From Archangium sp. (lineage in GTDB: Bacteria > Myxococcota > Myxococcia > Myxococcales > Myxococcaceae): DNA of 5,619 nt. Position 1 is the first letter of the stretch. Each line of letters opens with the position of its first letter. The DNA is taken from the NCBI GenBank assembly GCA_016793525.1, contig JAEUJT010000430.1, positions 1 to 5,619 on the forward strand. Direction: 5' to 3'. Both the position numbers and the translations under genes were made by a program. Positions 1 through 5,619 of this stretch are shown in pieces. The notes beneath the pieces were generated by a model. The model was not told the DNA's origin, made no database searches, and saw only the letters and a list, made by a program, of their open reading frames with translations.

Positions 1-642
1 GCCGACGCGCTGCGGCTGTACGAGCTGTTCATGGGCCCGCTGGAGCAGGTGAAGCCCTGGCAGATGGCCGGCGTGGCGGGCGTGCAGCGCTTCCTCGAGC
101 GGCTGTGGCGGTTGGTGGTGAACGAGGAGACCGGGGCCGTCAACGCCAAGCTCTCCGATGACGCGGCGGCGAGCGAGGTGGGCCTCACCAAGGCGCTCCA
201 CGCGTGCATTCAGCGGGTCGAAAAAGACACGCTCGGCTTGCGCTTCAACACCGCCATCAGCCAGATGATGACGTTCGCCAACGAGGCCACCTCGGCCAAG
301 GTGGTGTCGAAAGACACCATGCGCACCTTCGCCAAGGTGCTGTCGCCCTACGCGCCGCACCTCGCCGAAGAGCTCTGGGCGCGGCTCGGCGGCGTGGGGC
401 TCGTCTGCCAGCAGCCGTACCCGGCCTTCGACGCGGCGCTGCTGGTGGAAGACAGCATCACCTACGCGGTGCAGGTGCTGGGCAAACTGCGAGGCGAAGT
501 GCGGGTGCCGGTCAACGCCACCGAAGCCGAGGTGCGCGCCGCGGCCGAAGCCGACGAGAAGGTGAAGGCGGCGTTGGCGGGCAAAACGGTGAAGAAGTTC
601 GTGTTCGTGCCCAAGCGGCTGGTGAACTTCGTTGTTGGGTAG
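1..642 (+). CDS. leuS: Leucyl-tRNA synthetase, C-terminal 213 residues (5' end outside window)
   Basis: This is the 3' end of the class I synthetase that charges tRNA-Leu in the cytoplasm. The frame is open from base 1 and ends at TAG 640-642. The opening residues DALRLYELFMGPLEQVKPW match the conserved LeuRS stretch at the start of the helical anticodon-binding domain, which here spans about residues 1-150 of the fragment and includes LSPYAPHLAEELW. The last 60 or so residues (from about YAVQVLGKLRGEVRVP to KRLVNFVVG) are the small bacterial LeuRS C-terminal domain that contacts the tRNA elbow. The Rossmann core, editing domain and KMSKS loop lie upstream of the window. The coding sequence overlaps the start of lptE by 11 bases, an arrangement related to the leuS-lptE order known from enterobacteria. 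Nothing suggests damage. The identification is very secure. Confidence 0.97.
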   Translation, partial: ADALRLYELFMGPLEQVKPWQMAGVAGVQRFLERLWRLVVNEETGAVNAKLSDDAAASEVGLTKALHACIQRVEKDTLGLRFNTAISQMMTFANEATSAKVVSKDTMRTFAKVLSPYAPHLAEELWARLGGVGLVCQQPYPAFDAALLVEDSITYAVQVLGKLRGEVRVPVNATEAEVRAAAEADEKVKAALAGKTVKKFVFVPKRLVNFVVG

Positions 643-1383: not shown

Positions 1384-1410
1384 TCATGAAGTCCCCCGTG
1401 AGTCGCCGGC

Positions 1411-1451
1411 AAAAAACACGAAGAGCCGCGACACCCGCAGGTGCGCGGCTC
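1411..1451 (-). terminator. Intrinsic terminator of rpsT
   Basis: On the minus strand, 23 bases past the rpsT stop codon, GAGCCGCG (1451-1444) pairs with CGCGGCTC (1430-1423). The stem continues inward as CACC/GGTG across one bulged T, closed by the loop TGCG. That gives a 12-bp GC-rich stem followed by TTCGTG and then six Ts (1416-1411). This is a classical Rho-independent terminator. It works only for the rpsT direction. Confidence 0.9.
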
Positions 1452-1473
1452 AGGGCGGTACCGCTCGCGCTGC

Positions 1474-1755
1474 TTACTTCTGTGCGGCGGTAGCGGTCTT
1501 GACCGACAGGTTGTGCGCCAGGCGGGCCACACGGCGCTGCGCGTTGCGGCGGTGCAGCACGCCCTTGCTCGCCGCCTTGTTCAGCAGGCTGGTGGCGTGC
1601 TTGAGCGCGTCTTTCGCCTTCGAGGCGTCGCCGCCGGTGATGGCTTCGCGGGCCTTCTTGATCGCCGACTTCACTTCAGACTTCACGGCGACGTTGCGCG
1701 CGTTGCGCTTCAGGGACTGACGGTGACGCTTTTCGGCGGAGTGGGTGTTGGCCAC
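1474..1755 (-). CDS. rpsT: 30S ribosomal protein S20
   Basis: The 93-residue, lysine/arginine/alanine-rich protein is S20, a primary 16S rRNA-binding protein of the small subunit. The N-terminus MANTHSAEKRHRQSLKRNARN follows the family signature MANxxSAxKRxRQ. Then come VKSEVKSAIKKAREAI, an acidic GGDASKA turn, and the conserved region around ASKGVLHRRNAQRRVARL, matching the three-helix bundle. Length is within the usual 85-95 residues. The start is GTG at 1755-1753, which gives the canonical second residue Ala and has a good ribosome binding site five bases upstream. The gene has its own promoter and terminator, so it is a single-gene unit, convergent with lptE and divergent from the gene at 1905. 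In E. coli rpsT also uses a non-ATG start (UUG) and S20 represses its own translation; whether the GTG here has a similar role is inference. Confidence 0.98.
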   Translation of the reverse strand: MANTHSAEKRHRQSLKRNARNVAVKSEVKSAIKKAREAITGGDASKAKDALKHATSLLNKAASKGVLHRRNAQRRVARLAHNLSVKTATAAQK

Positions 1756-1760
1756 GGGTT

Positions 1761-1768
1761 CTTTCCTT
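1761..1768 (-). promoter_or_regulatory. Ribosome binding site of rpsT
   Basis: AAGGAAAG on the minus strand ends five bases before the GTG start of rpsT. It is one of the clearest Shine-Dalgarno-like sites in the window and settles the choice of the GTG start. Confidence 0.75.
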
Positions 1769-1793
1769 ACAGAGAGAAAAAAGAAGAGGTCCG

Positions 1794-1822
1794 CGTCTAG
1801 CGTCGACGCCCCGGGGAGTCAA
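1794..1822 (-). promoter_or_regulatory. Probable sigma70-type promoter of rpsT
   Basis: On the minus strand a TTGACT hexamer (1822-1817, five of six bases of the -35 consensus) is followed after exactly 17 bases by TAGACG (1799-1794), which keeps T1, A2 and A4 of the -10 consensus. Transcription would start near 1787 and give a leader of about 30 bases carrying the ribosome binding site. The strong -35, ideal spacing and position in front of a ribosomal protein gene support it; the -10 is weak. The spacer contains two adjoining 8-bp palindromes, CGTCGACG and CCCCGGGG (1801-1816). Confidence 0.6.
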
Positions 1823-1856
1823 CGCGTCAGGCTCACTCTCGGCGTGACGCCCGTTC

Positions 1857-1870
1857 GAGCGCAGGCGCTC
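1857..1870. repeat. Short perfect inverted repeat between rpsT and the 1905 gene
   Basis: GAGCGC (1857-1862) and GCGCTC (1865-1870) form a perfect 6-bp dyad with a 2-base centre, in the 149-base gap between divergent genes and 35 bases before the ATG at 1905. No T-run follows on either strand, so it is not a terminator. It could be an operator, but short GC palindromes are common by chance in DNA of this composition. Confidence 0.3.
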
Positions 1871-1904
1871 AGCGAAAAATCGACACTCCGGTACCCTTGG
1901 CGCC

Positions 1905-2795
1905 ATGCACCGCGCGCTGACGGGGGCGATGGTCGTGGCGACGCTCTCGTGCGGTGTGCCCGAGCGGCAGTCGCATTCGCTTTCGCTGAACCTGCTGCTG
2001 GCCGACGGCACAACCGCGTCGGTTCGGCTCAATGGGCCCGCGGGCTTCGGGGGCGTCGCTGGCACGTCGACGGTTCGGGCGAGCTGGCCCTTCATCGCCG
2101 ACGAGCGCGAAGATCGGTTCGTCACCGAATTGACCCCGTGGCGCCTGGGCACCTTTGAGGCGCACGCGTACGAGGCGCGGGTCGGCGGCGCGGCCTACCG
2201 GGAGACCTCGGAGCGCGTTCTTCGGCTCCACGTCGAGCGGATCCAGTGGAACCACGCCGCACATTTTCCGTGGACTCACCATGGGCGCATCTCGGGCCAC
2301 ATCGGCGATGTCGCGGTCTCCGGCGCGTTCACCACCAGCGAGAGCGGCGACTGCGACAACCCGCGCACCCGCCCTGGGGCGATGACGTGCGGTACCCTCT
2401 GGCCAGTCGACTTCGAGGCCGGCGAGCCGGCGAAGCAGCTCCGCTTCGAGGTGGTGGGCCTCGCCAGCACCTGCCCGACGGCCATTCGCAACCGGTTCTT
2501 TGATGGCACCTCGGCGTCGTTGACGCGCGAGCGCTTTCGCGTGGGCTCGGCGCAGGAGGTGCCGTGCGTCGCGACCGACCTCCCCTCCGAAGTGGCGAGC
2601 GGCTGGAAGCGGGTGCCGACGACGCGCATCACGTGCGGGCTCGACACGGTCATCGAGGTCGACGGGTGCCGTTGGGCGACGACGGTGAATGTGTTCGACC
2701 AGCTCCAGCTCTTCATCACCGCGGCGGTGGTCGACGGGAGCTGCGGGCCGCAGGCATGCCTGCTCACCGCGCCGCTGCTGCCGCCGGTGCCGTGA
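1905..2795 (+). CDS. Exported Cys-rich protein of unknown function, possible lipoprotein
   Basis: I do not recognise this 296-residue protein. Its first 15 residues have Arg3 and then a hydrophobic run (ALTGAMVVATLS) ending at Cys16, so it is probably exported. The sequence before Cys16 (TLSC) is a poor lipobox, so lipidation is uncertain. Eight further cysteines lie in the second half (Cys150, 162, 190, 221, 244, 255, 280, 285), an even number that could make four disulfides outside the cytoplasm. The first half has alternating beta-strand-like stretches (LSLNLLLADGTTASVRLNG, RVLRLHVERIQW) and no Cys, suggesting two domains. The protein ends in a proline-rich LLPPVP. ATG 1905 is the natural start; no Shine-Dalgarno sequence precedes it, and TACCCT at 1892-1897 could be a -10 placed for a leaderless or near-leaderless message. 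Codon use fits the neighbours, so it is a real gene. A gap of 106 bases separates it from the next gene. Confidence 0.8.
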   Translation: MHRALTGAMVVATLSCGVPERQSHSLSLNLLLADGTTASVRLNGPAGFGGVAGTSTVRASWPFIADEREDRFVTELTPWRLGTFEAHAYEARVGGAAYRETSERVLRLHVERIQWNHAAHFPWTHHGRISGHIGDVAVSGAFTTSESGDCDNPRTRPGAMTCGTLWPVDFEAGEPAKQLRFEVVGLASTCPTAIRNRFFDGTSASLTRERFRVGSAQEVPCVATDLPSEVASGWKRVPTTRITCGLDTVIEVDGCRWATTVNVFDQLQLFITAAVVDGSCGPQACLLTAPLLPPVP

Positions 2796-2861
2796 GGGGG
2801 CCCTCGACTCCTTCACGGACGGAGATCGCCTTCGCCGCGAGCGGCAACTGAGGCCCCGAGA

Positions 2862-2884
2862 TTCGGCTAGGTTCGCCAGCCGAA
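2862..2884. repeat. Perfect 7-bp inverted repeat upstream of the DUF1571 gene
   Basis: TTCGGCT (2862-2868) and AGCCGAA (2878-2884) are exact complements separated by nine bases, 17 bases before the ATG at 2902. No T-run follows, so it is not a typical terminator for the upstream gene. TAGGTT at 2868-2873 inside it is a weak -10-like hexamer. It could be an operator or a leader hairpin for the two-gene unit downstream, or chance. Confidence 0.35.
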
Positions 2885-2901
2885 CAGAGGGCGGTTCCGA
2901 C

Positions 2902-3600
2902 ATGTGGCAGCTGTGTTTCGTAGGAATGGTGCTGGCTCAGGTCGACGGCGGCTCCGGCTCCGGTGACATCGGCGACGTGCTGAAGCGCGCGCAGCAGGCC
3001 GTGGTCGCGCTGGGCACCTACCGGTACCACATGGTGAGCCAAGAGCGTGTCGGCGGCACGCTGCTCCCGGAGAACGAGGTCGACCTCTTCGTGCGAGAAA
3101 CGCCCTTCGCCGTGCGCCTCGAATACGTGGGCGGTCCTGCCAAGGGTCGTTTCATCATCTACGACCCGGCAGTGCGTGCAGACGAGTTCCGGGTGCGTGA
3201 GAGCGGGCTGCTGCGCGTCACGGGGGCCTGGTGGGTGCCCGTCGACAGCCCATTGGCGAAACGCACCAGCAACCACTCGGTGCGGGAAGCCGGCCTCGGG
3301 CGGCTGCTCGATCGTCTGGCGCGCAATCACGTCATGGCTGCCCCTTTGGGCGGCTTCGCGATGAGTGCTCCGAAAACGGACGCGCAGGGCCACCGCTGCG
3401 CCGACTTTCGTGCGCCCGAGGGCAAGGTGCACTTCGACTATCGGGTGACGCACCTCTGCTCCGACCCCGTCACGGGCCTGGTGACGCGTGTTGAAGGCTA
3501 CGACGACGCGGGCGCGCTGCTCGAGCGCTTCGCCTTCACCGACATTCAGCGCGCAACGCTGTCCGACGACTTCTTGCACCCGGTGCGCGCCAAGCTGTGA
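2902..3600 (+). CDS. DUF1571-family exported protein
   Basis: The 232-residue product matches my recollection of the DUF1571 family, proteins of unknown role found in myxobacteria and planctomycetes. Family-like stretches are ALGTYRYHMVSQERVGGTLL (residues 36-55), the strand segment VDLFVRETPFAVRLEYVGGP (60-79), KGRFIIYDP (81-89), and PVDSPLAKRTSNHSVREAGL (113-132). The overall strand-rich pattern recalls LolA/LolB-like lipid carriers, but that link is an inference. A short hydrophobic N-terminus (FVGMVLA) with possible cleavage before Gln13 suggests export; it lacks the usual basic residue near the start, which is odd. Cys166 and Cys186 could form a disulfide. ATG 2902 is chosen because upstream in-frame codons are low-complexity, overlap the previous gene, and offer no better start nearby; GAGG at 2887-2890 is a weak binding site. 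The stop overlaps the next gene's start (GTGA), so the two are almost surely co-expressed. Confidence 0.85.
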   Translation: MWQLCFVGMVLAQVDGGSGSGDIGDVLKRAQQAVVALGTYRYHMVSQERVGGTLLPENEVDLFVRETPFAVRLEYVGGPAKGRFIIYDPAVRADEFRVRESGLLRVTGAWWVPVDSPLAKRTSNHSVREAGLGRLLDRLARNHVMAAPLGGFAMSAPKTDAQGHRCADFRAPEGKVHFDYRVTHLCSDPVTGLVTRVEGYDDAGALLERFAFTDIQRATLSDDFLHPVRAKL

Positions 3601-5619
3601 TCGCTCGCCTCTCAGCGCACGTGGCGTGGGGCCTGTTCCTCTGCGCGCGGCTCGCGTTGGCCCACGACGACGGCGGCGTCGACGACATCGTGCCACCCGC
3701 GCTCCTCGAAGCGCTCCCGCTCTCCGCGCCCGACGGAGGCGCGCCGGGCGACGTCGACGTGGCGCTCACCGTCGACGGGTCTGGCGCGGTGATCGACGTG
3801 CAGCTGAGGCACAGCCCCGATGAGGCGTTGGCGGCCGAAGCGCTTTCGGTCGCGCGGCGCTTGCGGTTTCGTCCCGCCACGCGAGGTGGCGAGCCCATCG
3901 CGGTGGTCATCGACTTTCGGTTTCACTTCGCCGCCCCCGTGGTGCCCGACGCTGGGCCGCCGATGGCCCGCATCACCGGGCAGCTGCTGACCAAGGGTAC
4001 GCGCGAGCCGGTGCCGTCGGCCGTGGTGATGCTCTCAGGCACCGAGCTCAACACCTTCAGCGATACTGAGGGCCACTTCACGCTCGAGGTGCCTGCGGGC
4101 CGGGCCAAGCTCGAGGTGAAGGCCCCAGGCCATCGCCCCAAGACATTCCCCGAGGTGGTGGGCCCCGGGGTGGAGCTCAAGGTCGTGTATCGGCTCGAGC
4201 CGGAGTTCGGTCGCCCGTACGAGACGATCGTTCGAGGGCAGGCCGACCGGGCCGAAGTGTCGCGGGTACACCTCACGGGCGCCGAGCTCACCGAGGTGGC
4301 GGGGACGGGTGGAGAGCCGCTGCGGGTGGTGATGGTGTTGCCGGGCGTCACCACCCCGGCCTCGGGGCTGAGCTACCCAGTGGTGCGGGGCGCGCTGCCG
4401 GCGGCGACCGGCTTCTTCATCGACGGGGTGCGTATTCCCCAGTTGTACCACTTGCTGCTCGGGCCCTCGGTCATTCACCCCGACTTCATCGAGGCCATCG
4501 ACTTCTTTCCCGCCAACGCGCCGACGCGTTTCGGCCGAATCACCGGCGGCGTGGTGTCGGCCCAGGTGTCGAAGCCGCGCACCGATCGGGTGCACGTCAC
4601 CGCGTACGCCGATCTCATCAACGCCGGCGCCTTCGCCGAGGTGCCGATTCAGAAGACCGGCACGTCGATCACCGTCGCGGGGCGGGTGAGCTACTCCGGG
4701 TGGTTGCTGGCGGCGCTGGCGGGGGCGCTCGCTCAGCAGTCGAAGCCGGTGGTCGACTTTTACGACTACCAGGCGCGGGTCGAGCAGCGCCTCGGCGCGG
4801 GCACCCTGCGGCTGCTGGCGTTCGGCAGCTCCGACCTGGTGGGCGCGCGCGACAGCGACATCACCCGCCCGTCGGCCTTCGTCACCTCGCGGTTCCATCG
4901 CATCGACCTGCGCGCCCAGTACCCGCTGGGGCCGGGGCAGCTCGAAGCCGGAGGCAACGTGGGGTGGGAGACGCTCGGGCTCTTCGCGGAGCAGAACGGC
5001 GGCCGCATCGGCGCGTTCTTGATGGACCGCTTCGTGCTGACCGGACGGGTGCAGTACCGAGTGGAGCTGGGCTCCGACTGGCAATTCAAGGCGGGGGCCG
5101 ACGTCGAGCGCCAGCTCGCCGACGTGGAGACCACCACCGAGATCGCGATGATGCCGTCGGTCTTTCGGCCGCCTCGGGCCGTGGGCGTCTTCGGTGGGCC
5201 CTTCGCTGAAGTGGGCTTTTTTCACGGCCCGTGGAGCGTGGTGGCCGGAGTGCGGGCCGATGCGTGGCACCTGGTGCCTGACGTCACGCAGCTCTCCGTC
5301 GAGCCGAGGCTCGATGCGCGGTACGTGGTGAACGAGACGGTGACGGTGCGCGCCACCGCTGGCCTCGCTCACCAGGCGCCGCTGCTGCTCATCAGCTTGC
5401 CGGTGGTCGACGTCGCGGCGCTGCGAGACGGGCTGCACCAGGTGGGGCAATTCAGTGCCGGCGCGCAGGTGGCGCTGCCGTTGAAGCTGCAGCTGTCGGT
5501 CGACGGGTACTTCAACCCGATTTTCCAAGCGCGAGAACGCAGCCTGCGCCAGTTCGTCTCGGGCATCTCGAGCCTCGACGATCGCTTCACCGGAGGCCGC
5601 ACCGGCCGCGCGTATGGGC
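3597..5619 (+). CDS. TonB-dependent-receptor-like protein with N-terminal TonB-CTD-like domain (3' end outside window)
   Basis: The frame is open for 674 codons from GTG 3597 to the window edge. Order of parts: signal peptide (residues 1-22, MIARL... ending LALA, cleavage before His23); a TonB C-terminal-like domain (about 52-111) with DVALTVDGSGAVIDVQL and LRFRPA plus a closing strand VVIDFRFHF; a carboxypeptidase-regulatory-like sandwich (about 123-200) with ITGQLL, SDTEGHFTLEVPAG and a KAPGH turn; a receptor plug (about 208-327) with LPGV (248-251), FFIDGVRIPQLYH (273-285) and RFGRITGGVV (311-320); then alternating amphipathic strands of an outer-membrane barrel (about 330 onward, incomplete). 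The product should sit in the outer membrane with its first domains in the periplasm. I see no inner-membrane anchor, so the TonB-like domain cannot act as an ordinary energised TonB. The GTG overlaps the upstream stop by 4 bp, and Arg4 plus the hydrophobic core support this start. Substrate is unknown. The receptor call is secure; the TonB-like call is good but made by eye. Confidence 0.88.
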   Translation, partial: MIARLSAHVAWGLFLCARLALAHDDGGVDDIVPPALLEALPLSAPDGGAPGDVDVALTVDGSGAVIDVQLRHSPDEALAAEALSVARRLRFRPATRGGEPIAVVIDFRFHFAAPVVPDAGPPMARITGQLLTKGTREPVPSAVVMLSGTELNTFSDTEGHFTLEVPAGRAKLEVKAPGHRPKTFPEVVGPGVELKVVYRLEPEFGRPYETIVRGQADRAEVSRVHLTGAELTEVAGTGGEPLRVVMVLPGVTTPASGLSYPVVRGALPAATGFFIDGVRIPQLYHLLLGPSVIHPDFIEAIDFFPANAPTRFGRITGGVVSAQVSKPRTDRVHVTAYADLINAGAFAEVPIQKTGTSITVAGRVSYSGWLLAALAGALAQQSKPVVDFYDYQARVEQRLGAGTLRLLAFGSSDLVGARDSDITRPSAFVTSRFHRIDLRAQYPLGPGQLEAGGNVGWETLGLFAEQNGGRIGAFLMDRFVLTGRVQYRVELGSDWQFKAGADVERQLADVETTTEIAMMPSVFRPPRAVGVFGGPFAEVGFFHGPWSVVAGVRADAWHLVPDVTQLSVEPRLDARYVVNETVTVRATAGLAHQAPLLLISLPVVDVAALRDGLHQVGQFSAGAQVALPLKLQLSVDGYFNPIFQARERSLRQFVSGISSLDDRFTGGRTGRAYG

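Follow-up and report, generated by a model that had tools for sequence, protein, structure and literature searches.

Described receptors and the window protein

The C-terminal domain of TonB is normally part of a separate protein that powers outer-membrane receptors. Such domains form dimers in crystals and, to some extent, in solution, and the account in PMC6118199 treats the biological relevance of this behaviour as disputed; the same source identifies the last strand of the domain as the binder of TonB boxes. Among the receptors, Oar of M. xanthus and the SusC-type TBDTs combine a CarboxypepD_reg domain, a TonB box, a plug and a barrel, and their descriptions in these sources include no TonB_C domain (PMC6434023, PMC7782687). 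The STN receptors FpvA, FecA and FoxA carry a small folded periplasmic domain ahead of the TonB box (PMC11658791). A Pfam survey of 34,893 TBDTs published in 2019 distinguished five architectures at the N-terminus; TonB_C is not among the domains that its legend names (PMC6434023). The myxochelin receptor MxcH (NCBIfam NF038079) shows the order signal peptide, TonB_C, TonB box, plug and barrel, and its model suggests that positions 1 to ~103 may be the TonB_C part.

The window, i.e., the whole stretch of 5619 bases analysed here (~69% GC), encodes a TonB-dependent outer-membrane receptor of the Oar type, whose N-terminal part bears an additional domain with the predicted fold of the TonB C-terminal domain (Table 1). 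No Ton genes are found among the upstream neighbours of the receptor inside the window, which ends before any downstream gene. The tRNA-ligase gene is one that we take to be of the leucyl type, and the 296-residue ORF gave zero Pfam matches at E up to 1 and a single NCBIfam line at chance level (E 0.08). The DUF1571 ORF also matches MucB/RseB under the Pfam cut-off, and its stop overlaps the GTG start of the receptor (GTGA, 3597-3600), an arrangement that suggests possible translational coupling; the public gene call for the receptor (P0001) begins at residue 9 (3621). DUF1571 was rejected as a conserved receptor partner, with zero blastp matches of the upstream ORF among the ORFs of 79 related loci.

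Table 1. Features of the window and domain order of the receptor (coordinates in the window, residues of the receptor)
Feature	Coordinates	Residues	Strand	Basis
tRNA-ligase gene, 3' end (Anticodon_1)	in window			Pfam
LptE-like gene	in window			Pfam
S20 gene	in window		minus	Pfam
ORF without family, 296 aa	1905-2795		+	
DUF1571 ORF	2689-3600		+	Pfam, E 7e-27
TonB-dependent receptor ORF, GTG start, open at window end	3597..5618	674 codons/aa	+	
Signal peptide	3597..3662	~1-22	+	read by eye
TonB C-terminal-like domain	3696..3932	34-112	+	Pfam, NCBIfam, structure model
CarboxypepD_reg domain (NTE of Oar/SusC-type receptors)	3966..4196	124-200	+	Pfam, fold matches
Putative TonB box, PYETIVR	4215..4235	207-213	+	conservation; function inferred
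Plug domain	4248..4571	~218-325	+	Pfam just under cut-off; homologue fold
Beta-barrel start, incomplete in window	4584..5618		+	Pfam under cut-off; homologue model

The first-pass annotation had proposed, for positions 3597-4580 (receptor residues 1-328), that a TonB C-terminal-like domain lies in one chain with a receptor plug, and family matches and predicted fold both bear this out; the two segments that it had pointed to, VDGSGAVIDVQL and LRFRPA, are present in the receptor chain. Pfam TonB_C matches residues 44-111 (E 8.3e-9, 36.2 bits, cut-off 24.6) and NCBIfam tonB_Cterm also passes (37.1 bits, cut-off 27.1). The carboxypeptidase-regulatory-like domain, also correctly read, passes as CarboxypepD_reg at residues 126-188 (E 6e-11, 43 bits, cut-off 32.3). 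Plug falls just short (residues 248-318, E 2.2e-4, 22.1 bits, cut-off 23.9), and the barrel match at residues 477-595 is below its cut-off of 27 (E 3.8e-4, 20.9 bits).

AlphaFold2 models, all of single chains, were obtained for a homologue and for part of the window protein. P0002, the homologue with the best score, is modelled as a complete TBDT with plug and 22-stranded barrel, and with a predicted N-terminal helix at residues 2-17. Because the structure search with this full-length model covered residues 213-869 only, a separate model of the N-terminal segment was made and used as a query. In the window protein (residues 23-243), ten-residue blocks over TonB_C have mean pLDDT values of 84-98, and the model matches the TonB C-terminal domains 6i97_D, 9ddz and 1u07, while its CarboxypepD_reg part matches 9hfj and 6ytc, a likeness shared with Oar and SusC-type receptors. 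The protein has the CarboxypepD_reg NTE ahead of the TonB box that characterises Oar-like receptors together with the C-terminal fold of a TonB energy transducer.

The domain shares fold and Pfam family with the C-terminal domain of TonB but differs in its setting and composition: it is N-terminal after a signal peptide, acidic where TonB domains are mostly basic, placed apart on the tree, and without a visible anchor. As read from the sequence, the anchor and proline-rich linker of the transducer are absent, with 10-20 residues between signal peptide and domain, unless an uncleaved signal peptide serves as the anchor; the earlier observations that the domain lacks a membrane anchor and sits on the receptor side, near the N-terminus, agree with this. 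The STN domain of FpvA, FecA and FoxA, in contrast, is another Pfam family (PF07660), for which no match is listed in the window receptor at E up to 1, and no regulator was identified in the window family.

MxcH is related in architecture but distinct as a receptor. Its model matches the window protein with 36.2 bits over model positions 13-96 only, i.e., the N-terminal domain, and the cut-off of 925 bits is not reached; the missing end of the window protein cannot explain the absent match over the plug. The M. xanthus receptor L104 scores 1020 bits with the MxcH model and E 5.4e-17 with Pfam TonB_C, and both L104 and L101 differ from the window protein in having no CarboxypepD_reg match. In four of five genomes the MxcH cut-off is passed, by six matches in all; four of these begin at model position 1, and two begin at position 95 or 104 and so lack TonB_C. 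MxcH-family receptors without N-terminal TonB_C (G002:C1:1943409-1945472, and L103 of G005 by Pfam) are natural variants.

The architecture is therefore already visible in public databases and within the MxcH model, and the reservation of the first-pass annotation, that similar fusions may exist in myxobacterial databases and that novelty is uncertain, was well founded. Public names of such receptors include 'TonB family protein' and 'energy transducer TonB'. No description of a TonB_C-receptor fusion was found in the titles and abstract openings of the papers listed by open-literature searches; the original MxcH paper (Eur J Biochem 2000, 267:6476) may already mention a TonB-like part. The N-terminal architecture of the window protein comes in addition to those named in the legend of the 2019 TBDT survey (PMC6434023).

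Distribution and evolutionary history of the fused domain

A protein search from the window receptor returned 337 homologues, and PF03544 is recorded (precomputed column) for 106 of the best 120 of these. The family's own TonB_C profile matches 114 of 121 proteins, and some of the other seven are cut or late-starting. At the genome level, 79 loci, nearly all titled Myxococcota, hold 81 plug ORFs, 72 of which carry TonB_C (L007 and L048 are partial at contig ends). On this count, an artificial join of two genes is rejected. Two loci titled Comamonas sp. KCTC 72670 (L039, L075) fall beside Myxococcus rows on the receptor tree and are probably mislabelled. In Corallococcus interemptor (L022), fused receptors occur in tandem (1399-4512 and 5994-8804), each followed by a lipoprotein-like start.

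The survey of how widespread this domain order is also covered receptors outside the window's own family. M. xanthus AM003 has 21 TonB_C matches, five of which are receptor fusions: L104/L083 (MxcH), L084, L088, L089 and L090, the last with CarboxypepD_reg, Plug and barrel all below the Pfam cut-off. Among the matches listed, at least 28 of 29 sampled genomes of the phylum have a TonB_C match. From the listed matches, 20 in long frames were chosen non-randomly, one per genome; the domain lies near the N-terminus in 15 and at the C-terminal end in five. TonB_C passes in all 15 N-terminal cases and Plug is seen in 14 (12 above the cut-off), while the fifteenth, L113, shows no Plug and has CarboxypepD_reg just below its cut-off. 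A second protein search with eight of these fused receptors as queries returned 1661 proteins; among the best 120, all have PF03544 and all match the fused-domain profile near the N-terminus. The named organisms among the matches listed in both protein searches are Myxococcota, the queries being myxobacterial. With the TonB_C domain alone as query, only two proteins were returned, one of them the window's own, probably because divergence leaves too few shared words. From these counts, we conclude that Myxococcota commonly have this architecture, in forms that include CarboxypepD_reg and in forms that do not.

To place the fused domain among TonB domains, a tree was built from 94 domains and 87 columns (27 of 91 inner branches open), in which domains were labelled from the reading frame alone as "TonB-type" (frame stops at most 40 codons past the domain) or "fused" (frame continues); the doubtful L152 was excluded from both tree and charge counts. 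The two groups are strongly sorted: the TonB-type label requires three changes, compared with a mean of 30.4 after shuffling and none of 500 shuffles as low, although relatedness alone also clusters labels. P0121 forms a very long branch among the TonB domains. A recent duplication of a neighbouring tonB was considered and is unsupported, as the adjacent TonB domains of L113, L114, L116, L126 and L165 group with other TonBs; the fused domain did not, at least, arise as a recent copy of the adjacent tonB gene.

Within the window's subfamily, a receptor tree of 89 rows, nine of them without the domain, needs at least five changes between presence and absence, with the direction of loss or gain taken from nesting and with the partial plug ORF L012 3-2036 and P0086, whose N-terminus is unknown, left out of the count. 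The domain is therefore not essential. It is nevertheless under purifying selection: over 33 pairs, the median dN/pooled dS is 0.35 for TonB_C, 0.43 for CarboxypepD_reg and 0.10 for the plug (absolute values are rough, owing to codon bias), and in an alignment of 121 proteins, the window's included, G63, V65, A82, F91 and P93 do not vary in any of the 111-113 rows covering them. A passive remnant of little function would agree with the absence of the domain from some close relatives, with its evolving faster than the plug, and with the window copy, from which the aromatic-Pro motif that often opens the domain is missing. The constraint expressed in the ratio of 0.35, the five invariant residues and the retention of the domain in 72 of 81 plug ORFs all speak against such decay, which we regard as highly improbable.

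TonB box, charge and a possible role in TonB recruitment

Three features, an acidic domain on a variable tether, a TonB box that is kept and the proximity of TonB genes, suggest that the domain pairs with TonB to recruit or select it. We tentatively favour, as possible rather than probable, a reading in which the fused domain is tethered in the periplasm and binds the C-terminal domain of the inner-membrane TonB. Rather than substituting for TonB, it would pair with that domain in the way that TonB domains can pair mutually. Such pairing would concentrate, or select, one of the cell's several TonBs next to the TonB box, which would then take over so that the plug opens. A bolder version, in which a widespread class of Myxococcota receptors uses an inverted-charge TonB copy as a TonB catcher, a mixed dimer preceding engagement of the box and the receptor choosing its TonB, is more doubtful. 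There are precedents: for one SusC, the NTE domain has been proposed to select the TonB (PMC7782687), and Oar of M. xanthus is described as being placed at the pole by one Ton system (PMC6434023). Against TonB recruitment, Oar, a receptor without the fused domain, is described as also contacting several TonBs (PMC6434023).

The first-pass annotation had found no clear TonB box before the plug. This is contradicted by the conserved PYETIVR between CarboxypepD_reg and plug, which we infer to work as the TonB box and which would presumably serve an ordinary TonB. In the 121-protein alignment, T210 is conserved in 118 of 118 rows, E209 in 114 of 118 and R213 in 114 of 119. By eye, a similar stretch is present in all 24 related N-termini inspected, in which the spacer from the fused domain to the box is variable, with or without CarboxypepD_reg. 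P0067, L011, L060 and L062 lack TonB_C, run from the signal peptide directly into CarboxypepD_reg and keep P-[YF]-ETVVR; in L071 and L076-L079, also without TonB_C, the box is altered, differing at its first position and retaining E-T. Because relatives without the domain keep the TonB box, and because the presence of the domain changes among relatives, the domain is an accessory.

The main rival to TonB recruitment is the cap that the first-pass annotation had put forward, in which the fused domain would pair with the TonB box of its own chain, or of a neighbouring copy of the receptor, and block TonB until ligand arrives. The idea has a precedent in the signalling domain of FpvA and FecA, that of FpvA being described as pairing with the TonB-box strand (PMC11658791), and it deserves to be weighed because the hydrophobic/aromatic pattern of the box-binding last strand is kept in the fused domain. 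The box, however, is not a strand in either AlphaFold2 model (P0002 and the window segment), where pLDDT is <50 at residues 213-217 of P0002 and ~74 for the box block of the window segment, and nothing in the strand assignments and confidence values of these models points to the fused domain holding the box; the box is kept in the relatives without the domain named above, and its distance from the domain varies. We thus consider a cap rather doubtful. The same last-strand pattern means that the domain may act as the decoy for TonB that had also been suggested.

Of the differences between the fused and the TonB-type domains, charge is the clearest. Forty TonB-type domains have a median net charge of +4 and a median pI of 9.56 (pI <7 in 5/40), whereas 38 receptor-fused domains have medians of -7 and 4.48 (pI <7 in 37/38); 20 of the 38 fused rows were Pfam-scanned and 18 were not, the median being -7 in both halves, and 19 of the 20 Pfam-checked rows have pI <7. 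The Mann-Whitney p for the difference is 2.5e-13, with relatedness ignored, and since the groups are nearly separate on the tree, the difference may represent one inherited change. The window's own domain has a net charge of -4 and a pI of 4.85, and the 16 domains of its subfamily have a median of -5.5 (pI <7 in 15/16); CarboxypepD_reg (+1) and plug (-1) of the same family are near neutral. In the second set, pI is <7 in 118 of 120 fused domains (best 120 of 1661).

If dimerisation, one of the functions suggested at first pass, is understood as pairing with TonB itself, it would fit this difference. That the fused domain serves to dimerise receptors or to anchor them to peptidoglycan is very unlikely: TonB C-terminal domains are described as dimeric in crystals (PMC6118199), but acidity in 37/38, 15/16 and 118/120 domains would disfavour both self-pairing and binding to anionic peptidoglycan. 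A simple charge complementarity with TonB is itself disfavoured by the TonB domains encoded beside fused receptors, which are among the least basic (net 2, 0, 0, 0, 2, 6 and 2 in seven pairs); the five TonB-type domains with pI <7 include three of them (L114, L116, L126).

Gene order provides a further line of evidence on TonB recruitment. Pfam matches at L113 give the order exbB, exbD, tonB, orf, receptor, in which the orf has no family and a lipoprotein-like start; exbB-, exbD- and TonB-like ORFs lie directly upstream of the receptor at L114, L116 and L124 (by eye), and in M. xanthus the TonB ORF L080, cut by a contig end, is just upstream of the fused receptor L089. A TonB gene beside a fused receptor speaks against replacement of TonB by the fused domain. 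The domain could instead be a signalling module or adaptor that binds another periplasmic protein (such as an anti-sigma factor, a substrate-binding protein or ExbD). Signalling by N-terminal domains is described for some TBDTs (PMC11658791), and evolution faster than that of the plug would suit varied partners; on the other side, the domain matches TonB_C with no STN match listed, and no regulator was identified among neighbouring ORFs, a weak point given their coarse, unannotated clustering. We judge such a role unlikely.

TonB recruitment would be an interesting mechanism if shown. A TonB-like domain of mostly opposite charge in the receptor chain, together with natural relatives without it, would make two questions testable in the laboratory organism M. 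xanthus: how a cell with many TonBs and many receptors matches them, and whether the TonB C-terminal domain acts as a dimer.

Lipoprotein-like starts behind the receptors

A lipoprotein-like start lies 2-5 bases past the receptor frame in 22 of 70 relatives under a strict rule, compared with 22 of 2000 random places. Examples include L002, L007, L008, L013, L016, L020, L021, L022, L068, L070, L072, L074, L075 and L079, among others. The same arrangement is seen behind receptors without TonB_C (L079, and L060 by eye). Receptor and downstream lipoprotein could possibly form a pair like SusCD or BtuBG, and motifs like PEDPIFxYG often come after the lipoprotein-like start.
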